Position numbers and translations under genes: made by a program
NCBI RefSeq assembly: GCF_001422405.1
Contig: NZ_LMMV01000012.1
Span: forward strand, 1-64,000
Origin: Pseudorhodoferax sp. Leaf267
Lineage (GTDB): Bacteria; Pseudomonadota; Gammaproteobacteria; Burkholderiales; Burkholderiaceae_C
Direction: 5' to 3'
Length of the DNA stretch: 64,000 nt
In this document: piece after piece, positions 191-37,503 of the stretch
Position numbering within the stretch: the first letter of the stretch is position 1
Layout: each line of letters opens with the position of its first letter
Notes under the pieces: model-generated
Databases searched by the model: none
Told to the model about the DNA's origin: nothing
The model's input: only the letters and a program-made list of their open reading frames with translations

Positions 191-1039
191 TCAACCCAGT
201 TCGAGGACCACCGGTTGGTGGTCCGACAGCTGGGTTTTTTCATCCACCATGAGTTGGCGCACGCGCGGTGCCAGGTCCTCGCTCAGGTAGAAAAAGTCGC
301 AGCTGATCGGCTCCGGCCCGTAGCGCCGGTCGAACACCCGGAAGGTCGGCGCATGCGCGTCGCCGGCATGGGCCACGGTCCACGCATCGACCAGCCGCGT
401 CGTGTCGTGCGGCCCCGCGGCCTGCAGCACGCGGTATTCCTCGTCCACCGTCTCGAAGTTGAAGTCGCCGCACAGCACGGCGCTGGCCGTGTGGCGCTTG
501 TTCTGGAACGGGCCACCACTCTCGTCGTCCAGCGGCGGCTGCGCGGCATGGCCGCAGGCCTGGCGGTGCAGATCTACCAGCGCATGGGCCTGGGCCATGC
601 GCTGGCGCTTCGAATAGAACTCCAGGTGCGTGGTCATGATGCGCACCGGGCCGAATGGCGCGGATACCGTCACGCTGGTGCACATGCGCGGCATGGAGCG
701 CACGCCGCCATCGGCCGGCCAGGGCAGGGCGTGGTGCTGCACCTGCTCCACCTGCAATCGCGTGGCGACCAGGTTGCCAAAGCGCTGGCGCTGGCCGTCG
801 CGGCCTCGCTCGTCGACCGCGGCGCCAAAGAACACCGCGAAGCCCGGCAGCAACGCGCGCACGCGCGCCACCTGGTCGAAGCCGGCATTGCCGGTCAGCC
901 CCGCGTAGTCGATGGCCACCTCCTGCAGGCACAGCACGTCGGCATCGCACCAGGCTTGCGCATGCCGGATCACGCGGTCCACGTCGACCACGTCGTCCAG
1001 GCCGCAGAACCATTGCACGTTCCAGGTCAGGATCTTCAT
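191..1039 (-). CDS. Endonuclease/exonuclease/phosphatase (EEP) family protein
   Basis: Metal-dependent phosphodiesterase fold of the EEP superfamily (DNase I, exonuclease III and inositol phosphatase relatives), about 282 residues. Visible landmarks in order are N-terminal LTWNVQW (Asn ligand), LQEV (metal-binding Glu), TTHLE, CGDFNFE (catalytic Asp/Asn) and the C-terminal SDHQPV (catalytic Asp-His). The start is chosen at the ATG giving MKILTWNVQ because it has GGAG six bases upstream and matches where the fold begins. An upstream in-frame ATG at 1099 overlaps the sigma factor stop as ATGA and could give a 20-residue extension, so translational coupling is possible. It is the last gene of the long minus-strand array. 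The substrate cannot be told from sequence. Confidence 0.85.
   Translation of the reverse strand: MKILTWNVQWFCGLDDVVDVDRVIRHAQAWCDADVLCLQEVAIDYAGLTGNAGFDQVARVRALLPGFAVFFGAAVDERGRDGQRQRFGNLVATRLQVEQVQHHALPWPADGGVRSMPRMCTSVTVSAPFGPVRIMTTHLEFYSKRQRMAQAHALVDLHRQACGHAAQPPLDDESGGPFQNKRHTASAVLCGDFNFETVDEEYRVLQAAGPHDTTRLVDAWTVAHAGDAHAPTFRVFDRRYGPEPISCDFFYLSEDLAPRVRQLMVDEKTQLSDHQPVVLELG
193..240 (+). terminator. Rho-independent terminator of the thiolase gene, inside the convergent gene
   Basis: The outer arms AACCCAG (193-199) and CTGGGTT (230-236) and the inner arms GGACCACC (205-212) and GGTGGTCC (217-224) pair perfectly around a GGTT loop. A run of six T follows at 235-240 on the plus strand. The element lies within the last codons of the opposite-strand gene 191-1039, so the same bases encode that protein's C-terminus. 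Confidence 0.8.
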
Positions 1040-1095
1040 CGCGGCTCCATGGGTGGGCGCGCCAGTGTCGCATGCCACCGCCGGCCTCATGCTCG

Positions 1096-1992
1096 TCATG
1101 GGCGCGAAGCGATGCGTGCCAACTTCTCTGGATTGCGCACTGCATAGATCGCGACGATGCGCTCGCCATCCGACACGAACGCCTGGGCGGATTCCAGCAC
1201 GCCGTCGACGTAGCGCAGCAGGCCGGGCTCGCCATTGACGGTGGCCGCTCGGTAGACCAGCCCATCGCCGAAGCGCCGCGTGCCCGCGAAGAACAGGTTG
1301 GCGATGCGGAACGCGCCGCGCAGCACCTTGCCGAACGAGGGCACCCGGCCGCCGCCGTCACCGACCAGTTCGGCGTTCTCGGCCAGCAGAGCCTGCATGG
1401 CATCGCGCTGGCCGCTGCGCGCGGCGGCGATGAAGCGTTCGAGCACGCGCCGGTGCGCCTCCCGCGGCACGGCAAAGCGCGGCTGCTCGCGCCGCACGCG
1501 CTCGGCGGCCCGGTGCACCAGCTGGCGGCAGGCCGCCTCGCTCTTGCCCAGCGTGGCGGCGATGTCGGCGTAGTCCTGGTCGAACACCTCGCGCAGCAGG
1601 TAGGCGGCGCGCTCCTCAGGTGCCAGGCGCTCCAGCACCCACATCAGCGCCACCGACAGCTCGCCAGCCTGCTCAGCCGCAGCCTCGGGCGTGTGCTCGT
1701 CCAGCTGCACCAGCGGCTCGGGCAGCCAGAAGCCCACGTAGGCCTCGCGCTCGACCTTGGCCGCGCGCAGCCGGTCGATCGCCAGCCGCGTGGCCACGGT
1801 GACGAGCCAGGCTTCGGCCGATGCCAGCGTGCCGTGTTCGGCCGCTTGCCAGCGCAGCCAGGTGTCCTGCACCAGGTCGTCGGCATCGGCGCGCGTGCCC
1901 AGCATGCGGTAGCCGATCGCGAACAGGCGCGGGCGCAGTGTGGTGAAGAGGTCGTCCGTGGCAATTGCCGTGTCGGCTGGGTCGGCGGGCAA
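1096..1992 (-). CDS. ECF41-type RNA polymerase sigma factor with SnoaL-like C-terminal domain
   Basis: A 298-residue extracytoplasmic-function sigma factor. Region 2 is visible as YRMLGTRADADDLVQDTWLRW (split here only for naming), and region 4 as a helix-turn-helix around DIAATLGKSEAACRQLVHRA. The C-terminal part is an NTF2/SnoaL-like extension. Three motifs known for the ECF41 group are present: WLPEPL in the linker, DGGGRV in the extension, and NPEKL near the end; that extension is known to tune sigma activity without a classical anti-sigma factor. The apparent start is TTG at 1992, four bases after the stop of the HD-GYP gene, so it is probably read from the same message. ECF41 genes usually neighbour a small oxidoreductase; none is seen here. 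Confidence 0.85.
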   Translation of the reverse strand: MPADPADTAIATDDLFTTLRPRLFAIGYRMLGTRADADDLVQDTWLRWQAAEHGTLASAEAWLVTVATRLAIDRLRAAKVEREAYVGFWLPEPLVQLDEHTPEAAAEQAGELSVALMWVLERLAPEERAAYLLREVFDQDYADIAATLGKSEAACRQLVHRAAERVRREQPRFAVPREAHRRVLERFIAAARSGQRDAMQALLAENAELVGDGGGRVPSFGKVLRGAFRIANLFFAGTRRFGDGLVYRAATVNGEPGLLRYVDGVLESAQAFVSDGERIVAIYAVRNPEKLARIASRP

Positions 1993-1996
1993 GGGC

Positions 1997-3102
1997 TCAG
2001 TCCTCGTCGCGGTGCGTGGTGGCGATCACGTTGAAGTCGTCTGCCACGGCCACGAAGGCGTCCACGATGTCGGGATCAAAGTGCTTGCCCCGGCCCTCCA
2101 CGACGATGCGGCATGACTCCTCGTGGCTGAAGGCCGGCTTGTACACGCGCTTGCTGATCAGCGCGTCGTAGACGTCGGCCAACGCCATGAGCCGCGCCGC
2201 GACCGGGATCGCGTCGCCGGCCAGGCCCAGCGGGTAGCCCGAGCCGTCCCATTTTTCCTGATGGCTGTACGCGATCTCCTTGGCCAGCGTCAGGAAGTCC
2301 ACCCTCATGCCCAGGCGCTTCTCGGCGTCCTCGATCGCCGCACGCCCCAGCGTGGTGTGGCTCTTCATGATCTCGAATTCTTCGGGCGTGAGCTTGCCGG
2401 GTTTGAGCAGGATGTTGTCCGGGATGCCGACCTTGCCGATGTCGTGCAGCGGTGCCGACTTGTAGAGCAGCTCGATGCAGCGCTCGGTCAGGAACTTGGA
2501 GAAGCGGGCATGCGTGCGCAGTTGCTCGGCCAGCCGCCGCACGTAGAGCTGCGTGCGGCGGATGTGCGCGCCGGTCTCGTTGTCGCGCGTCTCGGCCAGC
2601 GAGGCCATGGCCATGATGGTCACGTCCTGCACCGCCTGCACCTCGGCCGTGCGCTTGGCGACCTCGCTCTCCAGGTAGGCGCTCTTGTCGCGCAGGAAGT
2701 CGGCGTTGGCCTTGAGCGTCAGGTGGGCATGCACGCGGGCCAGCACGATGGGCGGGCTGATCGGTTTGGTGATGTAGTCGGCCGCGCCCAGCTCCAGACC
2801 GCGCGTTTCGTCCTCCACCTCGGAGCGCGCGGTCAGGAAGATCACCGGGATATCGCGCGTGCGCGGCTCGGCCTTCAGCCGACGGCAGACCTCGTAACCG
2901 TCGATGTCCGGCATCATGATGTCCAGCAGGATCAGGTCGGGCGGAGTTTCTGAATTGGCGATGCGCAGGCCGCGCTCGCCGTGGTTGGCCACCTTGACCT
3001 TGTAGTGGTCCTTGAGCAGCGCGCTCATGAGCGACAGGTTGTCCGGCGTGTCGTCCACCACCAGCACGGTGGCCAATTTGGGCGGTTCGATCCAAGCGTC
3101 CA

Positions 3103-3106
<4 letters not shown>
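1997..3106 (-). CDS. Response regulator with HD-GYP cyclic-di-GMP phosphodiesterase domain
   Basis: 369 residues, RpfG-like. An N-terminal receiver domain (about 12-130) has the acidic pair VVDD and phospho-acceptor Asp62 in LLDIMMP. A helical linker follows, then an HD-GYP domain with the HDIGKVGIP metal motif and the GSGYP signature. HD-GYP domains hydrolyse cyclic-di-GMP; the receiver suggests control by phosphorylation. The start ATG overlaps the stop of the diguanylate cyclase gene (ATGATGG context), so synthesis and breakdown enzymes are translationally coupled. The partner kinase is not identified, though two hybrid kinases with Hpt domains lie about 15 kb away. Function is secure at family level. 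Confidence 0.92.
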
Positions 3107-4662
<1,556 letters not shown>

Positions 4663-4675
4663 GCTCGTCCTTCCA

Positions 4676-7600
4676 TTACAGCGCGCCGTCAGCCGAGCGT
4701 GGCGCATCGCTGCCCTGCGTGTCCTTGCCATCATCGACCAAGGCCGGCGCCGTGTGTGGCTCACCGCGCACCCGCTGCCTGCGACGCGTGAGCACCGGCA
4801 GCGGATCGAAGGGCCTCCAGGCTGGCGAAGCGGCCAGCAGGCTGGCCACCAACGCACTGCCGCGGCTGGCCCAGAACACCGCGCCCAGCGAGATCACCAG
4901 CCCGCCAACCAGCACGTTGTCGACGTCGATGGCAGCACGCACCGCGCTGTCGCTGCTGCCGACCGGCTCGGCTGCCGTGATTCTCGCGCGCAGATGGCTG
5001 CCGTTGCCGACCACCGATGCCAGGCCCGCCGCGTCCGCAGCATCGCGCAGCAGCATTGCGAGCACGTCGTCGGCCCGCTCGTGCTGCAGCCGGCTGCTGT
5101 GCACGCTGGCCCAGTCCATGCGCTGCACGCGGGAGGCGCGCAGCGCGGCGTCGAAGGTCGAGCCGGCCAGCACCGCCGGGGCCGGCACCGTGCCCGGCGC
5201 GCGGTCTTGCAGGGCCCAGGCGCCGGTGCTGTCCGTGCCGTCGACGCCACCCGCTTTTTCAGGGCGACCGGTTCCACCGGCGCCACCGGTCCCGTCCAGC
5301 TCCGTGGCCCCGCCACCGCTGCCCAGGAGGGCCGGCAGCCGCACCGGGCCCAGCGGGCTGCCGGGCGCCACCGCGAGGGGCACGATGGTGACCGGCGCAA
5401 TGGGGTCCGGCGGCAGGCCCGGCCCCAACGAGTCCCCGGGTTCCGCGATGACGGGGGGCAGCACCTGCACGTACACCATCTGCGTGGCGAACAGTGTGCC
5501 GTTGCTGGCGCGCACCAGCACCTCGTACCGGTTGTCGCGCCCTGCGTCGCGCGGCAGGTCGTAGCGTGGCGGGGCTGTGAAGCGCAGCGCGCCCGTTGCC
5601 GCGTCGATCTCGAACTGCGCGGCGTCGGCACCCCCGGCGATGCTGTAGGCCAGCGTGCGGCCCATCGGATCGGTGGCGGCCACGGTCGTGATCGGCACCT
5701 GCTCTTGCGCCACGTCCACGGTGCTGCTGTCCGCGGCGAACACCGGCGGCAGGTCGACGGGGTCCTGCCGCAGGCGCACGGCCACGCTGCGCACCAGCGT
5801 GCTCGCCGAGCCATCGGCGCTCGTGGCCTGGATGACGATGCCATGGCTGGCGGCCACGCGGCCGTCCAGCAGCCGGCCATCGGCCACGGTCACCACGCCG
5901 GTCGTGGCGTCGATGGTGAAGCGGCCACCGGCATCGTCCAGGAGCGTGTAGCGCACCGTGTTGTTCGTGCCGTCCGGGTCCACGGCATGGGCCGTGATGC
6001 CCACCGGCGTGCCGGTGGCGGCGCCCTCGGGCACGGTGTCGGCTGCCGGGTCCACGTCTGCCACCGGCCCGATCGCATGCTCGTTCGTGTCGGCCAGCAC
6101 GATGGTGAAGCCGGCAGTGGAGAACGAGCCGTCGGCCGAGTCGGCGCGCACGGTGATCTGGTGGCTGGAGGCTGCCTCGTAGTCCAGCCGGCTGCCATCG
6201 GCCACCGTCACCACGCCGCTCACCGGGTCGATGGTGAAGCGGCCACCGGCATCGTCGTTCAGCGTGTAGCGCACGGTGCTGTTGGTGCCATCGGGGTCGA
6301 CCGCATGCGCCGTGATGCCCACGGGCGTGCCGTTCGCTGGATGCTCGGCCACCGGCAGCCCGTTGCCGTTGTTGGTGCCCACCGTGCCGTAGACGCGGTT
6401 GCCCAGCAGGGCATTGCCCCGGGCGGCGCTGTCCTCGACCTGGATGCCGCTGGCGCCGCTGCCGCCCTGGTTGCTGAAGGCGACGAGGTTGCCCTCGCCC
6501 GCGCCGGTGCCGCCGATGAGGTTGTTGCTGCTGGCGCCCGACAAGCGGATGCCGTAGGTCTGCGCGCCCCAGTTGAGCGTTCCCGCCGCGTCGGTGCCGA
6601 TGGTGTTGCCCTGCACGGTGTTGCCGCTGGACGCGATCAGGATGAGGCCCGTAGCGCCCGCGCCCGCGATGCGGTTGCCGGCGGCCGCCGTGCCGATGGT
6701 GTTGTTGTCGCTCTGCTCGACCCGGATGCCGCTGGACACCGTGCCGATGCGTGTCGTGCCGTCGCCACTCAGGCCCACCCAGTTGCCCAGCACCTGGTTG
6801 CCCGAGGCCGACGCCGAGACGAACGCGATCTCGATGCCGTAGAAGGTCCCGGCCACCACGTTGCGGTCGGCGGCCGCCGTGCCGCCGATGGTGTTGCTGG
6901 CGCCCTCGACCAGGATGCCGGTGTCCTCGATGGTGGTGGTGCCCACGCCGCCGCCGGGTGCGAGCCGGCCCACGTAGTTCCCGGCGATGGTGTTGCCGTT
7001 GGAGCCTGGCTGGATCCAGATGCCGCTGCTCAGCCCGTTGGTGATGACCAGGCCGCGGATGGTGCTGCCGCTGGCGCCGGGGGTCAGCGTCAGGATCTGG
7101 TTGTCCATGCCGTTGCCGTTGAGCACGATGGCCGGCCGGCTGCCGTTGGCGGCGAAGCTGTCGTCCGTGCTGCCGTCGATGACGACCGGGCGGGCGATCT
7201 CCGGCAGGGGCGAGCCGAGCGTGATCGTGTGGGTTCCCGTGCCGCTGATGCCGAACTCGATGCGCAACGCCTGCGCGCCCGCCGCCGTGTTGTTCACCGC
7301 GATGAGCGCCTCGCGCAGCGAGATGCGTCCGTCGCTGCCCTTGCTGTCGAGCAGCGCGAACACGCTGCTGGTGTCGCCATTGACCGTGTCCGCATTGGTG
7401 TCCACCACAAGGACCGCGCTGGTGGTCACGCGGCTGAGCGAGAACTCCGAGGTGTCGGTGAAGCTGGTGTAGCCGGCCACCGAGCGCGTGGCCGTGGCCG
7501 AGATCACATGGCCGACCGGCACGGCCGTGCCGGTCAGCACGGCCGAGAAGCTGGCGTTGCCCGAGCCGTCGGTGGCGACGTCCACGTAGCCCAGGTAGGT

Positions 7601-9484
7601 CTGACCCTCGCCGTAGCCGCTGGGGTCGGCCGCGGGCGAGGAGAAGAACTCCAGCCTGTAAAAACCGTTGGCATTGGTGTTCAGCGTGCCGGCCACCTGC
7701 ACCAGACCGGCGCCGTCCGTGCGGGCCTGCGTCAACACCGGGTGGTTCTGCAGGTTGTTGGCGCCACTGTCACCGTCACCGGTGTCGTTGGCCGTGACGC
7801 CGTTGGTGCCCAGGTCGATGCCCAGCCCCCCGCTGCCGTAGATGCGGTTCGCGGAGAAGGTGTTGCGCACGACGCCCGCGTCGGAGGCGTTGATGCCGTC
7901 CGAGGAGGTGACGCTCTGCCCGCTGAAGGCGATCACGTTGCCTTCCACACGCGTGTCGGTCGCTGCCCCGGAGCCGGGGTCTTCCAGCAGCACGCCGTTT
8001 CCGAGCATGCCCCAGTTCGCCGTGCCGGCCAGGTCGGTGCCGATGCGGTTGCCCTGGATCAGCGTGCCGGTGGAGGGGCCGTCCACCTCGATGCCGGTGG
8101 AGGCGTTGGCGATCCAGTTGCCGGCGCCCGCACCGAGGCCGCCGATGACGTTGTTGTCCCCGCCGCCCAGTACGCCGATGCCGGTGGAGCCAGTGCCCGG
8201 CGCCGTCGTGCCGTCGGGCAGGACGCCGATCCAGTTGCCGCGCACGACATTGTTGTCGGCCGCCTCGAAGGTCATGCGGATCGCCGTGGAGCCCGCGTTG
8301 GTGATGACGTTGCGGTCCGCCAGGGTGTTGCCGCCGATGGTGTTGGACGACCCTTCGATCCAGATGCCGGACGCGCCCACGCCGGTGGCCAGCGCGGCGC
8401 CGTTGGCGCCCACGCCGCCGATGAAGTTGCCCGCGATGGTGTTGCTGTCCGATCCGGCCTGGATCAGGATGCCGCTTTGCTGGAAGTTGGTGATGACCAG
8501 GCCGCGGATGGTGCTGCCATCGGCCGTGCTGGAGAGCGTGAGGCCGTTGGCGTTGAGGTTGTTGCCATTGAGCACGATGGCCGGCCGGTTGCCGTTGGCA
8601 GCAAAGCTGTCGTCGGTGGTGGCGTCGAGGGTCACCCGGTCGGTGATGGTCGGCAGCGCGCTGGACAGGTTGATGGTGTGCACCCCCGTGCCCGGGATGT
8701 TGAAGGCGATGGTGTCGTCGACCGTGGTGGTGGCGTTGGAATCCAGGATCGCCTGGCGCAGCGAGCCGGCGCCGCTGTCGGCCGTGTTGGTCACGGTGTA
8801 GGTGGCCAGCAGCCCCTGCCATTGCGCCTGGGTCTGCAGGCCGAAGGCGAGCCGTGCCTCGATGGCGCCGGTCTGCATTTCCAGCGTCCAGTTGCCGCCC
8901 AGCGCGGCGGCGCCCGTCGCATCCTCGCTGGCTGCCACGTCGGCGCCCGTCAGCGCGGCCAGGCCCCGCACGAGCTCGCGCCCGTCGTCGGTGGATGCCA
9001 CGTCGCAGCCATACAGCAGGATGTCGGCATCGCGGCCCAGACGGAGTCCCCAGGCCGCGATCTCGTCGGCGCGCTGCAGCAGCGCCGGCGAGTCGAGCGC
9101 CTGCCGCCCCAGCAGCAGCTGGCCGGCACCGCCATGGCTGACCAGGTGCAGCGCGGCCACGTCGTCGCGGCCGGCCAGCGCGGTGCCGATCGCAGTGATG
9201 GCGTCTTCGTCCGCGCCGATGCGGATGGTGTCGATCGTCCGCCCGTCGCCGGCCTGCGCCGCGAAGGCGGCGGCCAGCGCGTCTGCGTCCTGCACGCGCT
9301 CGTCGATGAACACCAGCTCGGTAGCGGCGCGCGGGTCCTGCGGGACCATCTGGTCGTGCTCGCGCTCCTCGGCCTGGTGCAGCAGGGGGGCAGCCAGCAC
9401 CGCGCCCGGCGTATCAGCCGAGTAAAGGATGCGTCGCTCGATATCTTCTAGTTCTGGGCGCTGACGGGGGCTGTTCCTCTTCAT
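4676..9484 (-). CDS. Giant surface protein: LEPR-XLL-like N-terminus, DUF4347, beta-helix and cadherin-like repeats
   Basis: 1602 residues, the likely cargo of the neighbouring export genes. Residues 11-24 (LEDIERRILYSAD) resemble the LEPR-XLL motif that opens many very large repeat proteins. A DUF4347 domain spans about 55-215 with LHLVSHG and LLYGCD motifs. Two right-handed beta-helix blocks follow (about 235-560 and 700-1040), each opened by a SLREA/SLRQA-type segment and rich in NTIGG/NVIGG turns. Then come two near-identical cadherin-like repeats (about 1045-1245) and a third diverged one to 1350. A proline/glycine-rich stretch leads to one hydrophobic segment (about 1524-1552) and a basic tail, which would suit membrane retention. 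No ordinary Sec signal peptide is visible. It starts 16 bases after the adaptor gene. Adhesin or matrix role is inference. Confidence 0.85.
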   Translation of the reverse strand: MKRNSPRQRPELEDIERRILYSADTPGAVLAAPLLHQAEEREHDQMVPQDPRAATELVFIDERVQDADALAAAFAAQAGDGRTIDTIRIGADEDAITAIGTALAGRDDVAALHLVSHGGAGQLLLGRQALDSPALLQRADEIAAWGLRLGRDADILLYGCDVASTDDGRELVRGLAALTGADVAASEDATGAAALGGNWTLEMQTGAIEARLAFGLQTQAQWQGLLATYTVTNTADSGAGSLRQAILDSNATTTVDDTIAFNIPGTGVHTINLSSALPTITDRVTLDATTDDSFAANGNRPAIVLNGNNLNANGLTLSSTADGSTIRGLVITNFQQSGILIQAGSDSNTIAGNFIGGVGANGAALATGVGASGIWIEGSSNTIGGNTLADRNVITNAGSTAIRMTFEAADNNVVRGNWIGVLPDGTTAPGTGSTGIGVLGGGDNNVIGGLGAGAGNWIANASTGIEVDGPSTGTLIQGNRIGTDLAGTANWGMLGNGVLLEDPGSGAATDTRVEGNVIAFSGQSVTSSDGINASDAGVVRNTFSANRIYGSGGLGIDLGTNGVTANDTGDGDSGANNLQNHPVLTQARTDGAGLVQVAGTLNTNANGFYRLEFFSSPAADPSGYGEGQTYLGYVDVATDGSGNASFSAVLTGTAVPVGHVISATATRSVAGYTSFTDTSEFSLSRVTTSAVLVVDTNADTVNGDTSSVFALLDSKGSDGRISLREALIAVNNTAAGAQALRIEFGISGTGTHTITLGSPLPEIARPVVIDGSTDDSFAANGSRPAIVLNGNGMDNQILTLTPGASGSTIRGLVITNGLSSGIWIQPGSNGNTIAGNYVGRLAPGGGVGTTTIEDTGILVEGASNTIGGTAAADRNVVAGTFYGIEIAFVSASASGNQVLGNWVGLSGDGTTRIGTVSSGIRVEQSDNNTIGTAAAGNRIAGAGATGLILIASSGNTVQGNTIGTDAAGTLNWGAQTYGIRLSGASSNNLIGGTGAGEGNLVAFSNQGGSGASGIQVEDSAARGNALLGNRVYGTVGTNNGNGLPVAEHPANGTPVGITAHAVDPDGTNSTVRYTLNDDAGGRFTIDPVSGVVTVADGSRLDYEAASSHQITVRADSADGSFSTAGFTIVLADTNEHAIGPVADVDPAADTVPEGAATGTPVGITAHAVDPDGTNNTVRYTLLDDAGGRFTIDATTGVVTVADGRLLDGRVAASHGIVIQATSADGSASTLVRSVAVRLRQDPVDLPPVFAADSSTVDVAQEQVPITTVAATDPMGRTLAYSIAGGADAAQFEIDAATGALRFTAPPRYDLPRDAGRDNRYEVLVRASNGTLFATQMVYVQVLPPVIAEPGDSLGPGLPPDPIAPVTIVPLAVAPGSPLGPVRLPALLGSGGGATELDGTGGAGGTGRPEKAGGVDGTDSTGAWALQDRAPGTVPAPAVLAGSTFDAALRASRVQRMDWASVHSSRLQHERADDVLAMLLRDAADAAGLASVVGNGSHLRARITAAEPVGSSDSAVRAAIDVDNVLVGGLVISLGAVFWASRGSALVASLLAASPAWRPFDPLPVLTRRRQRVRGEPHTAPALVDDGKDTQGSDAPRSADGAL
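5881..6331 (-). repeat. Direct DNA repeat encoding two cadherin-like modules
   Basis: Two copies of about 133 bases, at 5881-6013 and 6199-6331, are offset by 318 bases (106 codons) and closely similar. Each encodes the same stretch beginning TPVGITAHAVDPDGTN and continuing through GRFTID and GVVTVADG. The DNA-level similarity suggests recent duplication or gene conversion inside the giant protein gene, a usual source of length variation in adhesins. Confidence 0.85.
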
Positions 9485-9500
9485 GGACGGTGGCAGCGCG

Positions 9501-10418
9501 CTAGCGGGTCGCGGTGCCGGTGGGCGTGAGCGTGGCGGGCGCGGCGGCGCGCAGGCCTAGATCGACCTTGCAGCGCAGGCCGGCGGGCAGTGCATGGTCG
9601 GCGTTGGGCAGGTCCAGCCGCAGGCGGAAGGTGTTGCTGGCCGGGTCCAGCACCTGGTCGATCTGCGCGATGCGCGCGCTGCGCGGCGTGGTGCCGGCCA
9701 GCTCGGGCACCACCTGCACCTGCTGGCCCTGGCGCAGCTGGCCGAACAGCGTCGTGGGCGCGACCACTTCCACGCGCAGGTGGGCGATGGCGGCGATCTT
9801 CACCAGGGGCTTGTCCTCGAAACGCTCGCCCAGGTTGGCGTAGCGCTCGACGATCACGCCATCGAAGGGCGCGCGCAGCACGCGCTGGTCGGTCTGCGCG
9901 CTGGAGACGACCAGCTCGCGCGCCGCGGTGCGCAACGCGTCGCGGGCCTGGGCCAGGCGCTCGTTGGCCACCTTGTATTCCGCGTGGGCCTGCTCCACGG
10001 CCTGGGTGGAGACGAAGTTCTCTTCCTTCAACGAGCGTGCCCGATCCAGCCGCAACTGGGCCAGCTCGCGGCCGGCCTCGGCGCCGCGCAGCTCGGCCTC
10101 GCTCTGCGCGCGCGAGCGCACCAGGTCGGCGTTGGCGCGTTCCACGTCGGAGCGCAGCCGCGCGAGGATCTGGCCCTTGCGCACGGCGTCGCCGCGCTCG
10201 ACCTCGAGTGTCTCGACCACGCCGATCACGGCGCTGCCGACATCGGCCACCTGCGAGGGCAGGATCAGGCAGGCCAGCGCCTGCATGGGGGGCGACGTGG
10301 CGGGCTGCTGCTGCGCGTCCACGGCCCAGGGCGCGGCGGCCAGCACCGCGCTGGCCAGGACGAGAGGGCGGCGCCGTGCGGCCGGTTCGTGCGGGCGCAG
10401 CGGAGGATGGGTGTGCAT
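9501..10418 (-). CDS. Periplasmic adaptor of the HlyD/RND family
   Basis: 305 residues. An N-terminal signal peptide is visible (basic n-region, hydrophobic core, cleavage near VDAQQQ). A biotinyl-lipoyl-like half motif (GVVETLEVERGDAVRKGQIL) is followed by a helical hairpin rich in Glu, Arg and Ala (about 85-165), the second lipoyl half (LRAPFDGVIVERYANLGE) and a beta-barrel domain. Such proteins bridge inner-membrane exporters to an outer-membrane channel. No RND pump or TolC-type gene is adjacent; the neighbours are the SecA-like ATPase (13 bases upstream) and the giant surface protein (16 bases downstream). That context makes an adaptor for protein export more likely than a drug efflux role, but this is inference. 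Confidence 0.85.
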   Translation of the reverse strand: MHTHPPLRPHEPAARRRPLVLASAVLAAAPWAVDAQQQPATSPPMQALACLILPSQVADVGSAVIGVVETLEVERGDAVRKGQILARLRSDVERANADLVRSRAQSEAELRGAEAGRELAQLRLDRARSLKEENFVSTQAVEQAHAEYKVANERLAQARDALRTAARELVVSSAQTDQRVLRAPFDGVIVERYANLGERFEDKPLVKIAAIAHLRVEVVAPTTLFGQLRQGQQVQVVPELAGTTPRSARIAQIDQVLDPASNTFRLRLDLPNADHALPAGLRCKVDLGLRAAAPATLTPTGTATR

Positions 10419-10431
10419 GGTGTCGACCTTC

Positions 10432-12441
10432 CTAACGCGAAGGGTTGAAGCTCAGGCTCGCGTCCATGGCGAGGTCCTGCTTGAACAGCTGGCGGCGCAG
10501 GCCGGACTGGCGCCGCTCGGCGAGGCGCTGGGCCAGGCGCAGCATGGCCAGCGCGAGGCGGGGCGACAGGGCCAGGCGGCCGCTGGCGTCGGGAGCGGGC
10601 GCCAGCACGCGCGCGGCGACGGCCAGGCCGGCCAGCAAGCGGCTGTCGGCGCCCGGGGTATGCAGCGCGAGCCAGACCTCGTGGCTGCCGGGCTGGCCCT
10701 GGCGCGCAGCGCGGCCCGCGAGCTGGCGGTCCAGCCGCTTGGAATCGTTGAGCTGGCAGCTCAGCACGTGCAGGCCGCCGGCGGCTTCGGCCGCCGCGTC
10801 CAGGCGGATGTCGGTGCCGCGGCCGGCCATGTTGGTGGCCACCGTGACCTGCGCGGCCCGGCCCGCGCAGGCCACGATGGCGGCCTCCTGCGCGTCCTGC
10901 CGCGCGTTGAGCACCTGGTGCGCGATGCCGGCCGCCTGCAGTGCCTCGGCCATGGCGAGCGAGCTCTCGACCGAGTCGCAGCCGATCAGCACGGGCCGGC
11001 CGGCGGCCACCAGCGCGGCCACGCGCGGCACGGCGGCGGCGCGGCGCGCGGCGTCGTCAGCGTAGACGCGCGTGGGCCAGGCGCTGGCCTGGCTGGGCAG
11101 GCGCAGGGGCACGCGCACCATGGCGCAGCCGTACAGCGCGCGCAGCTCGGCGCGGGCCTCGTACAGCGTGCCGCTCATGCCGCCCAGGCGGTGGTAGCGG
11201 CGAAAGAAGCGCTGGAAGGTGATCTGCGACAGCGTCTCGGTCTGCTTCTGGTGCGGCAAGCCCTCCTTGAGCGCGACCAGGGCATGCAGGCCGCGCGACC
11301 ACTTGCGGCCGTCGGCGATGCGGCCGGTCAGCGCGTCGACGATGGCGATGTCGGCCGGGCGCTCGGTGGCGGGATCGGCCGGCTGCACCACGTAGTCGCG
11401 GTCGCGCTGCAGCAGGTGCTGCGCGGTCAGCGCCAGCGTGACGGTCTCGTCGCGGTGGCGCTCGTTCTTCCACAGCGGGCCGAGCGTGGTGGCCAGCCGC
11501 GTGAGGCGCGCGCGGCCGGCGGAGGTGAGCGCGATGCGGCGCGGCGTGCCGGTGATGGTGAAGTCGTGCCGCTGCGCGAGCCGGCCGGCCAGCGCGCGGG
11601 CCTGCCACAGGAAGGCGCGGGCGGCGCCGTCGTTCACCTCGCGCGAGAGGATCAAGGGCATCAGCGCTTCGTCGACCAGCACGCTGTCGGCCTCGTCGAT
11701 CACTGCCATGCACAGGCCGCGCAGCACGGGCCGGCTTTCGGCGGGTGCGCTGAGTGCCAGCGCGCGGCGCTGCAGCGGCGCGCGCGCCGTGCCGTGGCTC
11801 AGGCGGTCGCGCAGGTAGTCGAACGCAGCCTCGCGCGCGGTGACGTAGACGACCGGTGCGGCGTAGGCGGCGCGGCGCGCGGGCTCCTTGTGCGAGCCGA
11901 TCACGAAGGCCACGGCCAGGCCCAGGCGCGCATAGAGCGGGGCGAAGAGCTCGGCGTCGCGCTGCACCAGGTAGTCGTTGGAGGTGAGCACGTGCACCGG
12001 GATACCGGCCAGCGCGCCGACGCCGGCGGCCAGCGCGGCGGCCAGCGACTTGCCCTCGCCGGTGGCCATCTCGACCAGCTGGCCGTCCAGGATGGCCAAC
12101 GCGGCCATGAGCTGCGTGGCGTAGGCCTGGCGGCCCAGCGTGCGCCGCCCGGCCTCGGCCACGTAGGCACAAGCCTGGTCGCGCGCGGCGCGCGCGAAGC
12201 CGCTGGCCAGCAGGGCGTCCTGCACCGAACCCAGCAGCGCGGAGAAGGCGCCATCGCTCAGGGCCTGCCACGCGGCGGCCTGGCGCCACATGGCGCCGGC
12301 CCGGCGCGGCAGGGCGCCGGGGCGCAGCGGCACCAGCGGTGCGCTGCGGCGCCAGCGCTTGCCACCCACGGGCTCGCTGCGCTCGGGGTAGCTGCCCCAG
12401 CGCAGGCCGGGGACGGGCAGGGTGGCAGAGGGCATGATCAT
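10432..12441 (-). CDS. Shortened SecA-like preprotein translocase ATPase
   Basis: 669 residues against about 900 for housekeeping SecA. Motor motifs are intact: Walker A MATGEGKS (128-132), NDYLVQRD (about 155), DEADSVLVDEA (249-259, a variant of the SecA DEVDS motif), ITFQRFFRRY, LGGMSGTL and MAGRGTDI (538-545). The N-terminus is shorter and the C-terminal zinc-binding Cys-rich tail is absent. It should use ATP to push a protein through a channel. The start is set at the ATG one base after the small ORF's stop (TGACATG); a second ATG lies two codons in. The position between an M50/HlyD protein and an HlyD adaptor, upstream of a giant repeat protein, suggests a dedicated accessory SecA. Housekeeping secA is not in this window. 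Confidence 0.88.
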   Translation of the reverse strand: MIMPSATLPVPGLRWGSYPERSEPVGGKRWRRSAPLVPLRPGALPRRAGAMWRQAAAWQALSDGAFSALLGSVQDALLASGFARAARDQACAYVAEAGRRTLGRQAYATQLMAALAILDGQLVEMATGEGKSLAAALAAGVGALAGIPVHVLTSNDYLVQRDAELFAPLYARLGLAVAFVIGSHKEPARRAAYAAPVVYVTAREAAFDYLRDRLSHGTARAPLQRRALALSAPAESRPVLRGLCMAVIDEADSVLVDEALMPLILSREVNDGAARAFLWQARALAGRLAQRHDFTITGTPRRIALTSAGRARLTRLATTLGPLWKNERHRDETVTLALTAQHLLQRDRDYVVQPADPATERPADIAIVDALTGRIADGRKWSRGLHALVALKEGLPHQKQTETLSQITFQRFFRRYHRLGGMSGTLYEARAELRALYGCAMVRVPLRLPSQASAWPTRVYADDAARRAAAVPRVAALVAAGRPVLIGCDSVESSLAMAEALQAAGIAHQVLNARQDAQEAAIVACAGRAAQVTVATNMAGRGTDIRLDAAAEAAGGLHVLSCQLNDSKRLDRQLAGRAARQGQPGSHEVWLALHTPGADSRLLAGLAVAARVLAPAPDASGRLALSPRLALAMLRLAQRLAERRQSGLRRQLFKQDLAMDASLSFNPSR

Positions 12442-12442
12442 G

Positions 12443-12631
12443 TCAGTGGCCCATGGCGCGACGCGCCGCCCGCAGCCCACGCACCTGCTCGCACGCAAAG
12501 ACTCCCACGGCCGCGGAGCAGGCCATGCCAGCGGCCGCCGCGGAACGGGCTCCGCCCGGCCGCTGGCGGCGCCGCTGGAGGGGGATGGGATGGCGACACG
12601 AAGTGCGCCAGCCAAACGGAGTGGTCGTCAT
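12443..12631 (-). CDS. Small protein, translationally coupled between M50/HlyD and SecA-like genes
   Basis: A 62-residue ORF that I do not recognise. Its ATG overlaps the stop of the M50/HlyD gene as ATGA, and its TGA is one base from the ATG of the SecA-like gene, so it fills the 187-base gap with coupling on both sides. The N-terminal third is basic and proline-rich; residues 31-48 (AAAAGMACSAAVGVFACE) are small and hydrophobic with two Cys, possibly a weak membrane helix; the C-terminus is basic. No Shine-Dalgarno of its own stands out, as expected for coupled starts. It could be a small subunit or merely a coupling spacer; conservation in relatives would decide. Confidence 0.5.
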   Translation of the reverse strand: MTTTPFGWRTSCRHPIPLQRRRQRPGGARSAAAAGMACSAAVGVFACEQVRGLRAARRAMGH

Positions 12632-14820
12632 GTCGTTGGTGAGAAATGCCCGAGCAGCAGCTGCTGCAGGCCGCGCAGCGCCTGGCTGGCGATGGGGGCG
12701 GTGCCGTGGTCGAAGCGCACCAGCGCGCGCGCGCCGAAGCGTTCGCCGGCTGGCTGGTCCAGCGCGATGTCCATCACCACCACGGGCTGGCGCGGCGTGA
12801 CGCCGTCCTTGTCGCCCGGGTCGGTGGGGATGTCGCCCCCGGCGAAGTCGCCCAGCGCCGCGCTCGGCAGGCGCGCCAGCGTGCCGGGCACCTGCAGCGC
12901 GATGCGGCCGGCATGCTCGCTGCGGTCGTCTTCCATCAGGCGCACGTGGATGTCGCCCTGGCGCGAGCGCACCAGGTCGGCCTGGCGCTGCGGCAGCGCC
13001 ACGCGCACCACCTGCGCGGCCTCGGTGAGCAGGTAGCCGATGGACTCGCCGCGCTTGCGAAACTGGCCCAGGATTTCCTCGCCCGGCGGCAGCACCAGCA
13101 CGCCGTCGGCCTGGGCGCGCACCTCGCGCAGCGCGAGTTTTTCGTCCACGCGGGCCAGCTCGGCCTGGCTGTAGGCCAGCTTCTCGCGCAGGTCGGGTGC
13201 CTCCTCGGGCGCGCTGGCGATGGCGTGGTACAGGCGCACGTCGGTTTCGGCCAGATCGCCGGCCAGGCTGGCGCGGCGCGCGACCAGGTGCTCGTCCTGC
13301 AGCACGGCGATCAGCGCGCCGGCCTGCACGCGCTGGCCGTCGGTGGCGGCCAGGCGCACAACGAAGCCCTCGGTGCCGGCGCGGATCTGCGCGTGCTCGG
13401 GCAGCCAGACGACGCCCTGGGCGACGCTCGTGAACGGCACGGGCAGCCAGGCCAGCAGCGCGAGCAACGCCAGGCCGACGCCGGCCACGCGCGCGTAGGC
13501 GCGGCCGCGTGCCTGCCCGTCCTGCAGGCCCCCGCGCATGGCCAGCAGCATGCGGCGCATCGGGAAGATGGTGTTGGCCGCCAGCATGAGGCCGCCCACG
13601 AAGACGCCCATCAGCGTGGAGATGCTGCCGATCCACAGCGCCACGACGATGCTCAGCACCAGCCGGTAGACCCAGGACGCAGGCGCGTACACGCGCAGCC
13701 ACCAGCGTTCGCCGGGCAGCGGCTCGACGGGCACGCGCGCCGGCACGCCGAACAGCCGCCGGTTCAGGCCCTCGGCCCAGTAGCGGCCGCTGCGCGTGGC
13801 CAGGTTGCGCAGGTCCAGCAGGTCGCACAGCACGAAGTAGCCGTCGTAGCGCAGCAGCGGGTTGCCATTGGTCAGCAGCGTGGACAGGCCCGCCGTCAGC
13901 AGCACGATGAACGCCATGTCGCGCACCAGCCCGGGCTGCACGGCCAGCCACAGGGCCAGCGCGATGGCGGCGATCAGCAGCTCGGCCATGATGCCGGCCG
14001 CGCTGATCAGCGCGCGCTGGTAGCGGCTGCGCAGGCCGTCGGCGGCCGAGGCGTCGACGAACGGCACCGGGTTCAGCACGATCAGCGTGATGCCCGCGCT
14101 GTGCACGCGCCCGCCGTAGCGCATGAGCGCCAGGCCGTGCGCGGCCTCGTGCAACACTTTGATGAAGGGGTAGCTGAGCCAGCCCAGCAGCAGGTAGCCG
14201 GGCGAGTACAGCACCTTGTCGGCATAGGGCACGAGCGCATCCCAGTGCATGGCGGTGCCCAGCAGGCCGGCGCCCACGGCCAGCAGCCACAGCGCAAAGC
14301 CCAAGGGCGAGAACAGCACCGGCGCGAAGCGCCGCAGCGGCTCCAGCAGCCAGGACGGGTCGCCCAGCGGCAGGCGAAAGGCCATGGGGTTCACGCCGGT
14401 CAGGCGGCGCTTGCGGCGGCGCTTGTTCTGCGCGTGGAACAGGGCCTCGACATCGGGCGGAACGTCGAACTGCATGAGCCCGCGGCCGTGCAGCGCGACC
14501 AGCAGCTCGATGGCCTCGGTCTGCGACATGGCCTCCTCGGGATGGGCCTGCAGCACGGCGTCCCAGATCTGCTGCACCGTGGCCTGGCCGTCGCAGCGGC
14601 CCACGAAGGCATAGGCCGCGGTGTTCAGGCGCTGGGCGTTGTCGTTGGTCAGGTCGCGCAGCACGTAAAAGGGGGTACCGCGCTGCACCTGCAGATCGAT
14701 CTGGACATGGCCGCGCAGTTGCGGCTTGAGCCCGGCCACGCGGTGCCAGCGCGGATTGAACAGCGAGGCCGGCGCGTCGGGCGTGCCGCGTTCGGCCGGG
14801 CGTGCGGGCCAGAGCTTCAC
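12628..14820 (-). CDS. PqqD-like / M50 site-2-type zinc protease / HlyD fusion protein
   Basis: About 730 residues. Residues 35-120 resemble a PqqD-type domain (LNTAAYAFVGRCDGQATVQQI through LHGRGLMQF, named in parts). Membrane helices follow near 169-188, 208-225, 270-293, 303-318, 390-415 and 450-465. The M50 protease motifs are intact: HEAAH at 224-228 and NPLLRYDG at 320-327. The C-terminal 260 residues are an HlyD-like periplasmic domain with a lipoyl-type half motif (AGTEGFVVRLAATDGQRV). The start is GTG at 14820, overlapping the stop of the GAF-HlyD gene as GTGA; the open frame to 15384 is a shadow of that gene. It may cleave or gate the export cargo. Domain identity is well supported, the role is inferred. 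Confidence 0.85.
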   Translation of the reverse strand: MKLWPARPAERGTPDAPASLFNPRWHRVAGLKPQLRGHVQIDLQVQRGTPFYVLRDLTNDNAQRLNTAAYAFVGRCDGQATVQQIWDAVLQAHPEEAMSQTEAIELLVALHGRGLMQFDVPPDVEALFHAQNKRRRKRRLTGVNPMAFRLPLGDPSWLLEPLRRFAPVLFSPLGFALWLLAVGAGLLGTAMHWDALVPYADKVLYSPGYLLLGWLSYPFIKVLHEAAHGLALMRYGGRVHSAGITLIVLNPVPFVDASAADGLRSRYQRALISAAGIMAELLIAAIALALWLAVQPGLVRDMAFIVLLTAGLSTLLTNGNPLLRYDGYFVLCDLLDLRNLATRSGRYWAEGLNRRLFGVPARVPVEPLPGERWWLRVYAPASWVYRLVLSIVVALWIGSISTLMGVFVGGLMLAANTIFPMRRMLLAMRGGLQDGQARGRAYARVAGVGLALLALLAWLPVPFTSVAQGVVWLPEHAQIRAGTEGFVVRLAATDGQRVQAGALIAVLQDEHLVARRASLAGDLAETDVRLYHAIASAPEEAPDLREKLAYSQAELARVDEKLALREVRAQADGVLVLPPGEEILGQFRKRGESIGYLLTEAAQVVRVALPQRQADLVRSRQGDIHVRLMEDDRSEHAGRIALQVPGTLARLPSAALGDFAGGDIPTDPGDKDGVTPRQPVVVMDIALDQPAGERFGARALVRFDHGTAPIASQALRGLQQLLLGHFSPTT

Positions 14821-16187
14821 AGCCAGCTCCACACGGCCAGGCGCAACCAGTCGGTCGCGCGGTGGAACCACACCCAGGCCAGCGGCGCCTGTCCGACGCC
14901 GATCTTGGCCACGCCCTGCAGGCCGGGGCGGATGCGCGCCGGGTCGGCCTGGATGTCGGCCTGCACATCGAACACGTTGCGGCCCTCGACGGCCTGCGCC
15001 ATGGGCGTGATGCGCGTGACCGTGATCGGCAGCGCGTCCCAGGGCAGGGCCGACAGGGCCAGCGTGCCGGCCTGGCCGAGCCTGAGGTAGCGGATGTCGC
15101 GCTCGTCCACCTGCACCATCACGCGAAAGCGCTCGGGCGGCGTCAGCAGCAGCAGCGGCTTGCCGCGCTCCAGCGGTGCGCCCAGGGACTGCGTGAGGTC
15201 GCCCTCGACGACAAGGCCGGCGAACGGCGCGGTGATGCGCGTGCGCGCCAGCTCCGAGGAGACGAGGCCCAGGTGGGCGCGGGCCTCGTCGGCGCGCGCT
15301 AGGGCGATGACCATGGCCGAGCGGTCGGCACGCGCCAGCGCGGCGGCATAGGCGTTCTCCTGCTGGCTCAGGTCGCTGCTCCACTTGCGCTGCTGCAGCA
15401 GCAGGTCCTGGTCGGCCAGCTCGAGCAGCAACTGGCCGGCCTCGACCCGGTCGCCGGGCCGCACGTGCACGGCCTTGAGGAAGCCATCGGCCGGGGCCAC
15501 CAGCGCGCGCTGCTCCTGGCCCTCGATGCGCGCCTGGCCGCCCACGCGGTGTTCCACCGGCACGGCCAGCACGCCGACGAGCGCCAGGGCGCCCACGCCC
15601 AGGCCCCAGGCCAGCCGAAGGTCATGGCCGTCGCGCAGGCGGCGCAGGCGGCGGCGCCAGGCGTCGCGCAACCGCCAGTGCAGCGGCGCGTCGCGCCGGT
15701 ACATGAGGTGCAGCACCGGGCCGGCCAGGCTGACGTGGTTCTCCAGCTCCTCCACGATCGCGGCCAGGTGCTCGGGCGGCGTGGTCCATTCGCAGCACAC
15801 GGCGCCCACGCACTGGCCCAGATGCACGATGGGCAGCGTGGCGACGGCGCCGCCACGCTCGCCGAGCAGGCGGCGGTGCGACTGGCGCAGCGCGGGCGGG
15901 CCGTCGGCCGGCCAGTGGATGGCCAGGCCTTGCTGCACGGCCTCGTCCATCGCGGCGGTCAGGTTGTTGTAGGCGGGCTGGTGCAGCTCGTCGTTGCTGC
16001 CGTGCGAGACCGCCACCAGCCGCACCAGATGGTTGTGCACGAAACCCACGCTGACCCGCGCACAGCCGCGCGCGTTGGCCAGCTCGCCGGCGAAGGCGGT
16101 GGCCGCTTCGTCCAGGCGTGCATGGGCCAGCACTGTCGCCTGAAGCGAAAGCGCCAGCGCTTGTGGATCGGCGATCCAGGACTTCAT
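14817..16187 (-). CDS. GAF-domain HlyD-type membrane fusion protein
   Basis: 456 residues, first gene of the export operon. A cytoplasmic GAF-like sensor domain fills about 25-165, followed by an Arg-rich segment (175-187), one transmembrane helix (192-211), and a periplasmic HlyD part with lipoyl halves (RALVAPADGFLKAVHVRPGD and RITAPFAGLVVEGDL) around a helical hairpin. The GAF domain on the cytoplasmic side of an adaptor is unusual for drug efflux and suggests that export is gated by a small ligand or nucleotide; that is inference. The stop overlaps the GTG of the next gene. No strong Shine-Dalgarno precedes the ATG at 16187. Confidence 0.85.
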   Translation of the reverse strand: MKSWIADPQALALSLQATVLAHARLDEAATAFAGELANARGCARVSVGFVHNHLVRLVAVSHGSNDELHQPAYNNLTAAMDEAVQQGLAIHWPADGPPALRQSHRRLLGERGGAVATLPIVHLGQCVGAVCCEWTTPPEHLAAIVEELENHVSLAGPVLHLMYRRDAPLHWRLRDAWRRRLRRLRDGHDLRLAWGLGVGALALVGVLAVPVEHRVGGQARIEGQEQRALVAPADGFLKAVHVRPGDRVEAGQLLLELADQDLLLQQRKWSSDLSQQENAYAAALARADRSAMVIALARADEARAHLGLVSSELARTRITAPFAGLVVEGDLTQSLGAPLERGKPLLLLTPPERFRVMVQVDERDIRYLRLGQAGTLALSALPWDALPITVTRITPMAQAVEGRNVFDVQADIQADPARIRPGLQGVAKIGVGQAPLAWVWFHRATDWLRLAVWSWL

Positions 16188-16505
16188 GCGGTGGCCTGTG
16201 TCGGTCAGCTGCCGGCACCGCCTGCGCTCGAGAGCGCCGCGCGGTCTTCGGCAAAAACTTCAGGCGAATCGGTGCGGGAACCCATGCAAAGCTCGCAACA
16301 GTGGGAAAAGCTTACAACGAACGCGCATATTCGGCTAGAAAAGGTGCCAATGTGGAGCGGCGGCCGCGCGATTTTTGATGATTTTTAGTGGGGGCCAGGC
16401 CGAGAAAAAGTGGGTGGCTTCCCTTCTGATGCGCGCACCACCGCCTGGACATTCGTTCGCAAGTAAGCAATGATTTCCCGACATAACCGTTCATAGGATG
16501 CGCGC
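16188..16505. other. Divergent intergenic region between export operon and chemoreceptor
   Basis: 318 bases with no convincing gene. It must hold the promoters of the minus-strand export operon and of the plus-strand chemoreceptor cluster. A more A/T-rich patch lies around 16365-16390 with a near-repeat of GATTTTTGATGATTTTTA. I could not fix a sigma-70, sigma-54 or sigma-28 promoter with confidence. Confidence 0.6.
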
Positions 16506-18110: not shown

Positions 18111-18114
18111 CATC

Positions 18115-22563
<4,449 letters not shown>

Positions 22564-37194: not shown

Positions 37195-37503
37195 GCCTGC
37201 GTGAAAACCTGCCCGACGGGCGCCATTGTGTTCGGCACCAAGCAGGCCATGAAGGACCATGCGGCCGAGCGCATCGAAGACCTGAAGGAGCGCGGCTTCG
37301 AACATGCCGGCCTGTACGACCCGGCCGGCGTGGGCGGCACGCACGTGATGTACGTGCTGCACCATGCGCACAAGCCTTCGCTGTACGCCGGCCTGCCCGA
37401 CGCGCCGAAGATCAGCCCCATGGTGGCGGTGTGGAAGGGTCTGGACAAGCCCATCGCGCTGGCCGGCATCGCGCTCACGGCGCTGGCCGGCTTCTTCCAC
37501 TAT
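37195..37503 (+). pseudogene. Formate dehydrogenase-N beta subunit, C-terminal fragment
   Basis: About 100 codons match the end of FdnH/Fdh[21 protein letters not shown] (an iron-sulfur Cys cluster), then [20 protein letters not shown] and the single membrane anchor [17 protein letters not shown]. The N-terminal two thirds, with the other [4Fe-4S] clusters, are gone. The fragment is fused upstream to alpha at about 37195 and downstream to gamma at about 37503, with no start codon or Shine-Dalgarno of its own. Confidence 0.88.

Follow-up and report, generated by a model that had tools for sequence, protein, structure and literature searches.

The stretch of DNA analysed here (the window) comprises 64,000 nt of contig NZ_LMMV01000012.1 from Pseudorhodoferax sp. 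Leaf267, and the locus of interest, at positions 191-16187, holds nine genes, all on the minus strand, as identified by Pfam and NCBIfam scans (Table 1). Four core genes, here called the cassette, specify a GAF-HlyD protein, a membrane protein with PqqD-like, M50 protease and HlyD parts (M50/HlyD), a SecA-like ATPase and an HlyD-type adaptor; next to them lies the gene for a large repeat protein, the candidate cargo. Modules of this kind accompany giant proteins tagged at their start across many bacteria, and are therefore probably the dedicated export machine of those proteins. The genes overlap or lie no more than ∼20 bases apart, the exceptions being a 186-base stretch before the SecA-like gene and a 56-base gap if the gene for the endonuclease/exonuclease/phosphatase (EEP) protein starts at 1039. 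A first-pass annotation of this DNA had given the nine genes the domain labels used here, which the scans bore out. It had also counted ten close-packed minus-strand genes; nine of these and their spacing stand, while the tenth, a small protein between the M50/HlyD and SecA-like genes, was ruled out as a gene and represents one copy of a dispersed repeat. The same scans revealed no ATP-binding cassette (ABC) transporter among the nine genes, as that annotation had stated, and PADLOC, used to look for a defence role among eight of the window proteins, gave no match.

Table 1. Features of the window locus, in amino acids (aa) and bits where given
Feature	Position	Strand	Evidence
GAF-HlyD membrane-fusion-type protein, 456 aa	14817..16187	-	HlyD_3 66.7 bits; GAF 18.3 bits (Pfam cut-off 22.4)
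PqqD-like/M50/HlyD membrane protein	12628..14832	-	M50 23.8 (gathering score 27.2), PqqD 18.5, HlyD_3 18.4 bits; all three under the Pfam cut-offs with the window sequence alone
Dispersed-repeat copy, not a gene, between M50/HlyD and SecA-like	12448..12612	-	repeat matches in own genome
SecA-like ATPase, 669 aa, without the C-terminal domains of SecA	10432..12441	-	SecA_DEAD 255 bits
HlyD/RND-type periplasmic adaptor, 305 aa	9501..10418	-	RND_mfp 132 bits (cut-off 94.9)
Putative cargo, 1602-aa DUF4347/beta-helix/cadherin repeat protein	4676..9484	-	DUF4347 171, cadherin 91.5, Beta_helix 33.3 bits
Degenerate LEPR-XLL motif LEDIERRILYSAD, cargo N-terminus	9392..9451	-	14.7 bits (cut-off 17)
Cargo C-terminal membrane helix, then PAWRPFDPLPVL and polar tail	4859..4933	-	mean hydropathy 1.76
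Membrane-anchored PAS-GGDEF diguanylate cyclase	3103..4662	-	domain matches
REC-HD-GYP phosphodiesterase of cyclic di-GMP (c-di-GMP)	1997..3106	-	domain matches
ECF41/SigJ-type sigma factor, candidate unit member	1096..1992	-	SigX4 339 bits, over cut-off
EEP protein, candidate unit member	191..1039 (start possibly 1099)	-	domain match

The Leaf267 genome gave four SecA_DEAD matches, one to the housekeeping SecA and three within cassettes; all three cassettes are ordered GAF-HlyD, M50/HlyD, SecA-like, HlyD, and no further one was found in the genome. The other two copies of M50/HlyD share 39% and 37% identity with that of the window, and in a tree of 72 M50/HlyD proteins the three copies fall in three different branches, which indicates old, separate systems. 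On contig C1, the cassette comes after the gene for a protein of 9822 aa whose LEPR-XLL motif is intact; a SapC gene separates the two, and a TolC-type gene closes the cassette. On contig C27, the cassette is preceded by a pair of neighbouring frames, one of 801 aa, which holds LEPR-XLL, and the other of 5124 aa. The two frames of this giant cargo (C27:56359-74174) may be two genes, or reflect a frame break in the gene or the assembly. When the whole genome was searched with the LEPR model NF012209, the C1 and C27 cargos scored 35.9 and 33.1 bits, over the cut-off, and the window cargo the value given in Table 1; a further match of 17.0 bits, in a 165-aa frame, was taken as chance. The genome-wide search and the cassette positions thus agree in pairing cassettes and LEPR-like proteins 3:3, each pair adjacent. 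A route for one giant protein, as first proposed, is therefore too narrow a description of a genome with three cassettes, that on C1 with its own TolC. The C-terminal signal T1SS_VCA0849 (TIGR03661), the only such model with which the whole genome was searched, gave no match.

Co-occurrence was measured in an order sample of 300 genomes and a phylum sample of 299, some genomes being in both. The M50/HlyD profile (E 1e-40) served as the marker of the cassette, and LEPR-XLL was called at E 0.01; searches with A1 and A3 covered up to three candidates per genome, and LEPR searches up to about 27. In the order sample, 54 genomes had the marker and 39 LEPR-XLL (36 both, 18 marker only, 3 LEPR-XLL only, 243 neither; Fisher P = 1.6 × 10–29). 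The phylum sample rendered 85 and 50, respectively (48 both, 37 marker only, 2 LEPR-XLL only, 212 neither; P = 1.5 × 10–29) and, when collapsed to genera, 29 with both, 15 with the marker only, 1 with LEPR-XLL only and 109 with neither (P = 3 × 10–19). The three LEPR-only genomes of the order sample owed their match to frames of 23, 50 and 452 aa, and those of the phylum sample to a 64-aa frame (G561) and a 2514-aa frame in a genome that is 86% complete (G502); the LEPR model has 24 positions, and the matches in frames of 23, 50, 64 and 452 aa are probably due to chance. The T1SS_VCA0849 signal, which marks classical type I adhesins, served as a negative control in the order sample: the marker was present in 10 of 50 genomes with the signal versus 44 of 250 without it (P = 0.69). 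The co-occurrence check that the first-pass annotation had called for was thus passed, the marker being present in 36/39 and 48/50 LEPR-XLL genomes with no such association in the control. DUF4347 was found in 48 order-sample genomes, 37 of them with the marker, and 49 of the 54 marker genomes carried LEPR-XLL or DUF4347. Where the LEPR frame and the marker shared a contig, 29 of 37 frames lay within 50 kb of the marker, all 29 on its strand. Half of the 96 LEPR frames listed for the order sample (48) are at least 5,000 aa long; the longest LEPR-XLL frame seen had 19,427 aa (G359, contig 115).

A scan of contigs gave 138 M50/HlyD relatives, the best 80 of which were kept (loci here and below are numbered with the prefix L) and include Pseudomonadota, Nitrospirota (Nitrospira), Myxococcota, Desulfobulbaceae and Rokubacteria. 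A GAF-HlyD homologue lay directly upstream of M50/HlyD in 79 of the 80, a SecA-like gene was on the same strand in 75, and the order GAF-HlyD, M50/HlyD, SecA was kept in 74, a recurrence that is more than chance. Among the five loci lacking SecA, three (L032, L064 and L084) end at the M50 end or within ∼200 bases of it, and two (L056 and L090) do not. HlyD was present in 66 loci (in 6 on the other strand), SapC in 17 and a TolC relative, by BLAST, in 4. In one branch of the M50/HlyD tree, the SapC-family gene (C1:405656-406429 in Leaf267) is repeatedly found beside the cassette. In the plasmid region L118, a DUF3467 gene (17848-18129) shares overlaps with GAF-HlyD on one side and the giant LEPR-XLL gene on the other, and may specify an extra small partner.

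Cassettes were also found on plasmids, 18 and 15 records being matched in two plasmid searches. Plasmids of Pontibrevibacter nitratireducens and of Pseudosulfitobacter sp. DSM 107133 carry, in front of GAF-HlyD, genes of 31.8 and 38.8 kb annotated 'LEPR-XLL domain-containing protein'; in two other plasmid regions that were opened, no gene bears this annotation. Such records, together with the lateral transfer inferred by Kamneva et al. (PMC4452313), are what would be expected if giant genes and cassettes merely shared horizontally moved islands with no joint function. This is very improbable, however: the co-occurrence persists where the LEPR gene and the cassette sit on different contigs, nearby pairs agree in strand without exception, the type of cargo tracks the tree of the machinery (see below), and the second class of giant proteins, with T1SS_VCA0849, has no such association.

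The SecA-like protein scored 422.8 bits with the canonical SecA model TIGR00963, below its curated cut-off of 800, and 306-385 bits with the SecA2 models TIGR03714, TIGR04221, TIGR04397 and NF012136, whose cut-offs are 725-1100. A profile of 55 SecA-like proteins aligned to residues 13-608 of a solved SecA chain of 783 residues, and the 69 relatives that matched well and were complete at the 3′-end all ended at a common point, -13 to +11 residues from the ends of the Leaf267 SecA-like proteins; the truncation reported in the first-pass annotation is thus a fixed property. In SecA, the missing part holds the helical wing domain and the two-helix finger, the latter contacting the SecY channel. 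In the structure model (predicted local distance difference test, pLDDT, 90.5; predicted template modelling score, pTM, 0.90) the C-terminal end is a single long helix. The ATPase motifs TGEGK, DE and GRGTD, the Walker motif included, are invariant in the 55 sequences, as would be expected of a motor rather than a scaffold.

Weak M50 matches (160-260 bits) had been regarded as noise, a view overturned when 12 such regions were fetched and read, revealing a sister type without SecA. Seven of them (L102, L103, L107, L108, L110, L111 and L112) have the order cargo, TolC, HlyD, GAF-HlyD homologue, M50, with no SecA; L113 has a SecA, L104 has an M50 gene beside a large protein in another order, and in L105, L106 and L109 the gene finder, trained on the GC-rich Leaf267 genome, did not resolve the genes. 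The OEP domain (Pfam) was confirmed in all five TolC candidates submitted, the HExxH motif is kept in the M50 proteins, and the two cargos read begin LEPRLMFDGA or LEPRIMFDAA. A further cassette of this type, with TolC, HlyD, HlyD and an M50-type gene, lies at 9508-17094 of the 36-kb plasmid pMSR-1 of Magnetospirillum gryphiswaldense MSR-1 (L121), a strain amenable to laboratory work, beside an ELWxxDGT repeat protein. In a test set of 60 genomes, a single SecA was counted in 22/22 genomes with the sister type only and in 10/10 without the marker, and two or more in 28/28 of the SecA type; four of the 32 SecA-type genomes stand outside this count (G052, G153, G181 and G000, in which a separate search gave four SecA_DEAD matches). 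Extra SecA matches numbered 42. For 36 of them, a strong M50 match is found on the same strand no more than 500 bases away; the other six are on contigs with no M50 match, one of them being a 144-aa fragment, probably of the housekeeping SecA.

These results bear on the idea that the cargo crosses via the ordinary SecYEG, with the truncated SecA only modifying or speeding the housekeeping SecA, in the manner of a chaperone or unfoldase, while M50/HlyD would act later, on release or in clearance under stress. Such a division of labour would fit the loss of the C-terminal domains in 69/69 relatives, the two-helix finger (the SecY contact) among them, and also the sister type, where the same M50/HlyD, GAF-HlyD and HlyD proteins occur in genomes with one SecA (22/22) and the housekeeping enzyme may therefore suffice. 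On the other hand, the invariant ATPase motifs are motor-like, not scaffold-like, and the cargo N-termini lack the hydrophobic core typical of signal peptides: by a crude measure, the best 11-residue mean hydropathy within the first 40 residues, the three Leaf267 cargos scored 1.52, 0.81 and 1.67, versus 2.21-2.64 for three Sec-type controls. We regard passage through SecYEG as possible, though less likely than not.

M50/HlyD consists of an N-terminal PqqD-like domain, a run of membrane helices that holds the protease motifs, and an HlyD part at the C-terminal end. Although the matches of the single window sequence are weak (Table 1), the profile of M50/HlyD sequences matched the solved PqqD protein 3g2b (1.2e-5), the HExxH motif was present in all 80 loci, and the residues of HExxH and NxNP....D (H222, E223, H226, N318, P319 and D324) are invariant in 62 aligned sequences. 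In the structure model (pLDDT 84.1, pTM 0.67) these metal-binding motifs sit in membrane helices, as in M50/site-2 proteases. The best NCBIfam match was the daptide HExxH intramembrane metalloprotease NF041824, with 133.7 bits over the PqqD and M50 parts (cut-off 300). The PqqD-like domain and the likeness to the daptide protease suggest that a leader is bound and cleaved. M50/HlyD might even be foremost a processing enzyme, as in systems for ribosomally synthesized and post-translationally modified peptides (RiPPs), so that the module would mature the cargo rather than move it; the daptide match, the PqqD profile match and the HExxH motif in 80/80 loci would all agree with this. Transport is indicated instead by the three HlyD-type proteins, the SecA motor and the TolC gene found in several loci, and no maturation enzyme recurs among the loci, which makes a purely processing role improbable. 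The three HlyD-type proteins of the window unit all belong to the HlyD class of membrane fusion proteins.

It might also be proposed that the cassettes are a widespread secretion system for the largest bacterial proteins in which SecA, devoid of its SecY-contacting domains, acts on a channel made of M50/PqqD/HlyD instead of SecYEG, the PqqD-like domain reading the leader, M50 cutting it in the membrane, and the chain passing on to TolC. The SecA-less sister would then represent an older form or a variant, relying on the housekeeping SecA or driven in some other way. No channel-like relative of the M50 model was found among the 50 best fold-search rows, since the matches there were to the HlyD part only, and we regard a channel of this kind as rather unlikely.

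The window cargo represents a subtype. Its DUF4347 domain (PF14252) is far above the cut-off of 24.6 bits, in agreement with the giant LEPR-XLL/DUF4347 protein first described, although its start stays below the cut-off of the curated LEPR-XLL model. The window motif LEDIERRILYSAD is tied to LEPR-XLL by intermediates in L027, L030, L039, L048 and L060, such as VEELEPRILYSAD (L030) and MEEIEPRLLYSAD (L060), the start motifs of the subtype thus ranging from VEELEPRILYSAD to LEDIERRILYSAD. In the M50/HlyD tree, 16 of the 17 loci with a downstream DUF4347/LYSAD-type cargo fall in one 22-row group with a support of 96 (the exception is L036); the tree follows the type of cargo. All seven cargos of the subtype with a readable C-terminus (window, L025, L026, L028, L039, L048 and L058) end in a membrane helix, the motif PAW..DP[LIV].[VI]L and a polar tail. 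By BLAST, a GGDEF gene follows the cargo in five of the six related loci in which the next gene is visible (L025, L026, L028, L039 and L058), so the link to GGDEF recurs; in the sixth, L031, no GGDEF was seen, and the cargo contains a run of unknown bases (an assembly gap). HD-GYP lies beside GGDEF in a single relative (L025, a 95% identical fragment). The second-messenger control attributed to the operon at first pass would thus rest on a recurrent GGDEF link and on an HD-GYP link seen in one relative.

Taken together, the association, gene order, strand agreement, negative control and tree make a functional link between the module and LEPR-XLL/DUF4347 proteins very likely. We propose, with a probability of roughly 0.7, that the four core genes form a type-I-like export machine with a truncated SecA and no ABC transporter, the cargo of which would be the neighbouring large repeat protein of LEPR-XLL type; export is the simplest reading of the combination of SecA, HlyD and TolC. 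A large surface protein with a self-contained route of export, as suggested by the first-pass annotation, thus remains the best reading, and the co-occurrence with LEPR-XLL speaks in its favour. In the mechanism envisaged, the LEPR-like N-terminal segment would act as the targeting leader, to which the PqqD-like domain of M50/HlyD would bind, and the SecA-like ATPase would drive the unfolded cargo chain through the inner membrane. The M50 site may trim the leader or clear stalled chains, and the three proteins could, with their HlyD parts, build a conduit through the periplasm that leads to a TolC-type channel whose gene lies elsewhere in the genome. Because of its C-terminal membrane helix, cargo of the window subtype would halt on its way out and remain anchored, the repeats lying outside, and its making or retention might be tuned by the GGDEF and HD-GYP enzymes encoded next to it.

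Several observations weigh against this proposal. The Fisher tests ignore ancestry shared beyond the genus. Eleven of the 48 DUF4347 genomes lack the marker; among the 18 of 54 marker genomes with no LEPR-XLL at E 0.01, 13 have DUF4347 and five neither protein (G052, G098, G114, G136 and G153). Eight of the 37 LEPR frames on the marker's contig are more than 120 kb distant, and in many genomes LEPR frames outnumber cassettes. The window motif falls short of the LEPR cut-off (14.7 versus 17 bits), and the Pfam and NCBIfam scans found no outer-membrane gene among the nine window genes, as the first-pass annotation had noted. Finally, the M50/HlyD machinery does not always come with a dedicated SecA, the sister type having none.

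Type I secretion (HlyB/HlyD/TolC) shares with the proposed machine the HlyD-type adaptors, a TolC in some loci and a very large cargo. The window differs in having a SecA-like ATPase and a polytopic M50 protein in place of an ABC transporter, and in the N-terminal position of the cargo tag; TolC is absent from the window operon and present in the C1 cassette. Assignment to type I secretion as a family was rejected, there being no ABC transporter, and the comparison was kept as one of working principle. The accessory SecA2 systems of Gram-positive bacteria likewise reserve a second SecA for large surface proteins; unlike these, the cassettes have HlyD and M50 partners, occur in two-membrane bacteria, and score far below the SecA2 cut-offs. 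The daptide protease NF041824 and PqqD-type RiPP domains match the PqqD-like and M50 parts end to end, with the differences that the score is below 300, that HlyD is fused, and that the partners are export proteins. LapA-type adhesins have an ABC exporter, a LapD/LapG protease switch and c-di-GMP control; the window resembles them in having a large, putatively anchored repeat protein beside c-di-GMP enzymes, and differs in that neither an ABC exporter nor LapD/LapG is among its nine genes, to which the search for LapD/LapG was confined.

The gene set itself was described computationally in 2015, so it is not without precedent, as had been supposed at first pass. The available parts of Kamneva, Poudel and Ward (PMC4452313) describe a module of a secondary SecA_DEAD protein, an M50 protein with HlyD, a GAF protein with HlyD, and an HlyD/biotin_lipoyl protein, sometimes with OEP and with no ABC transporter, and propose SecA as the substitute for the ABC ATPase of type I secretion and the M50 protein as the pore. 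One such operon, MexAM1_META1p2402-2399 of Methylorubrum extorquens AM1, is named there. The window shares with that module the second SecA_DEAD beside the housekeeping SecA, the co-encoded M50-HlyD, GAF-HlyD and HlyD proteins, and the lack of an ABC transporter. The role of that module is termed 'completely unknown' in the paper and no cargo is named in its locus sections, although its Figure 3 draws some proteins of >1,000 aa and may show large neighbours. Relative to those parts of the paper, what is new is the cargo link; the machine had already been proposed. The present analysis adds a cargo class, backed by statistics and by a negative control, the SecA-less sister type, the fixed C-terminal truncation, the kept protease motifs with the PqqD-like domain, and the subtype with a downstream DUF4347 cargo, C-terminal membrane helix and GGDEF. 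Among open-licence papers in PubMed Central, preprints excluded, none was found that assigns LEPR-XLL cargo to a SecA/HlyD module. LEPR-XLL and DUF4347 proteins are encoded by some of the longest bacterial genes. If the proposal is correct, a gene set known since 2015 gains a role, thousands of LEPR-XLL-tagged proteins gain a secretion route, and SecA would be seen to power a type-I-like machine across the envelope.

Some minor observations were also made. In nine loci (L038, L042, L063, L071, L079, L085, L087, L095 and L100), large frames upstream of the cassette contain a zincin-like HExxHxxGxxH motif in their C-terminal parts, and several then end in W..DF[LV]NHL...NPNA; these may be self-processing or surface proteases. 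The repeat mistaken for a small gene in the window is ∼160 bases long, occurs on several contigs and resembles an intergenic repeat family. The 165-base copy gave at least 36 matches in the Leaf267 genome, itself included, a lower bound since 40 of 185 candidates were scored. Of the four nearest relatives, L022, L024 and L025 lack it, and there the SecA start overlaps or directly adjoins the M50 stop; L023 has a similar insert. Elsewhere in the window, several short frames at 35902-37849 look, by eye, like pieces of a formate-dehydrogenase-type operon.

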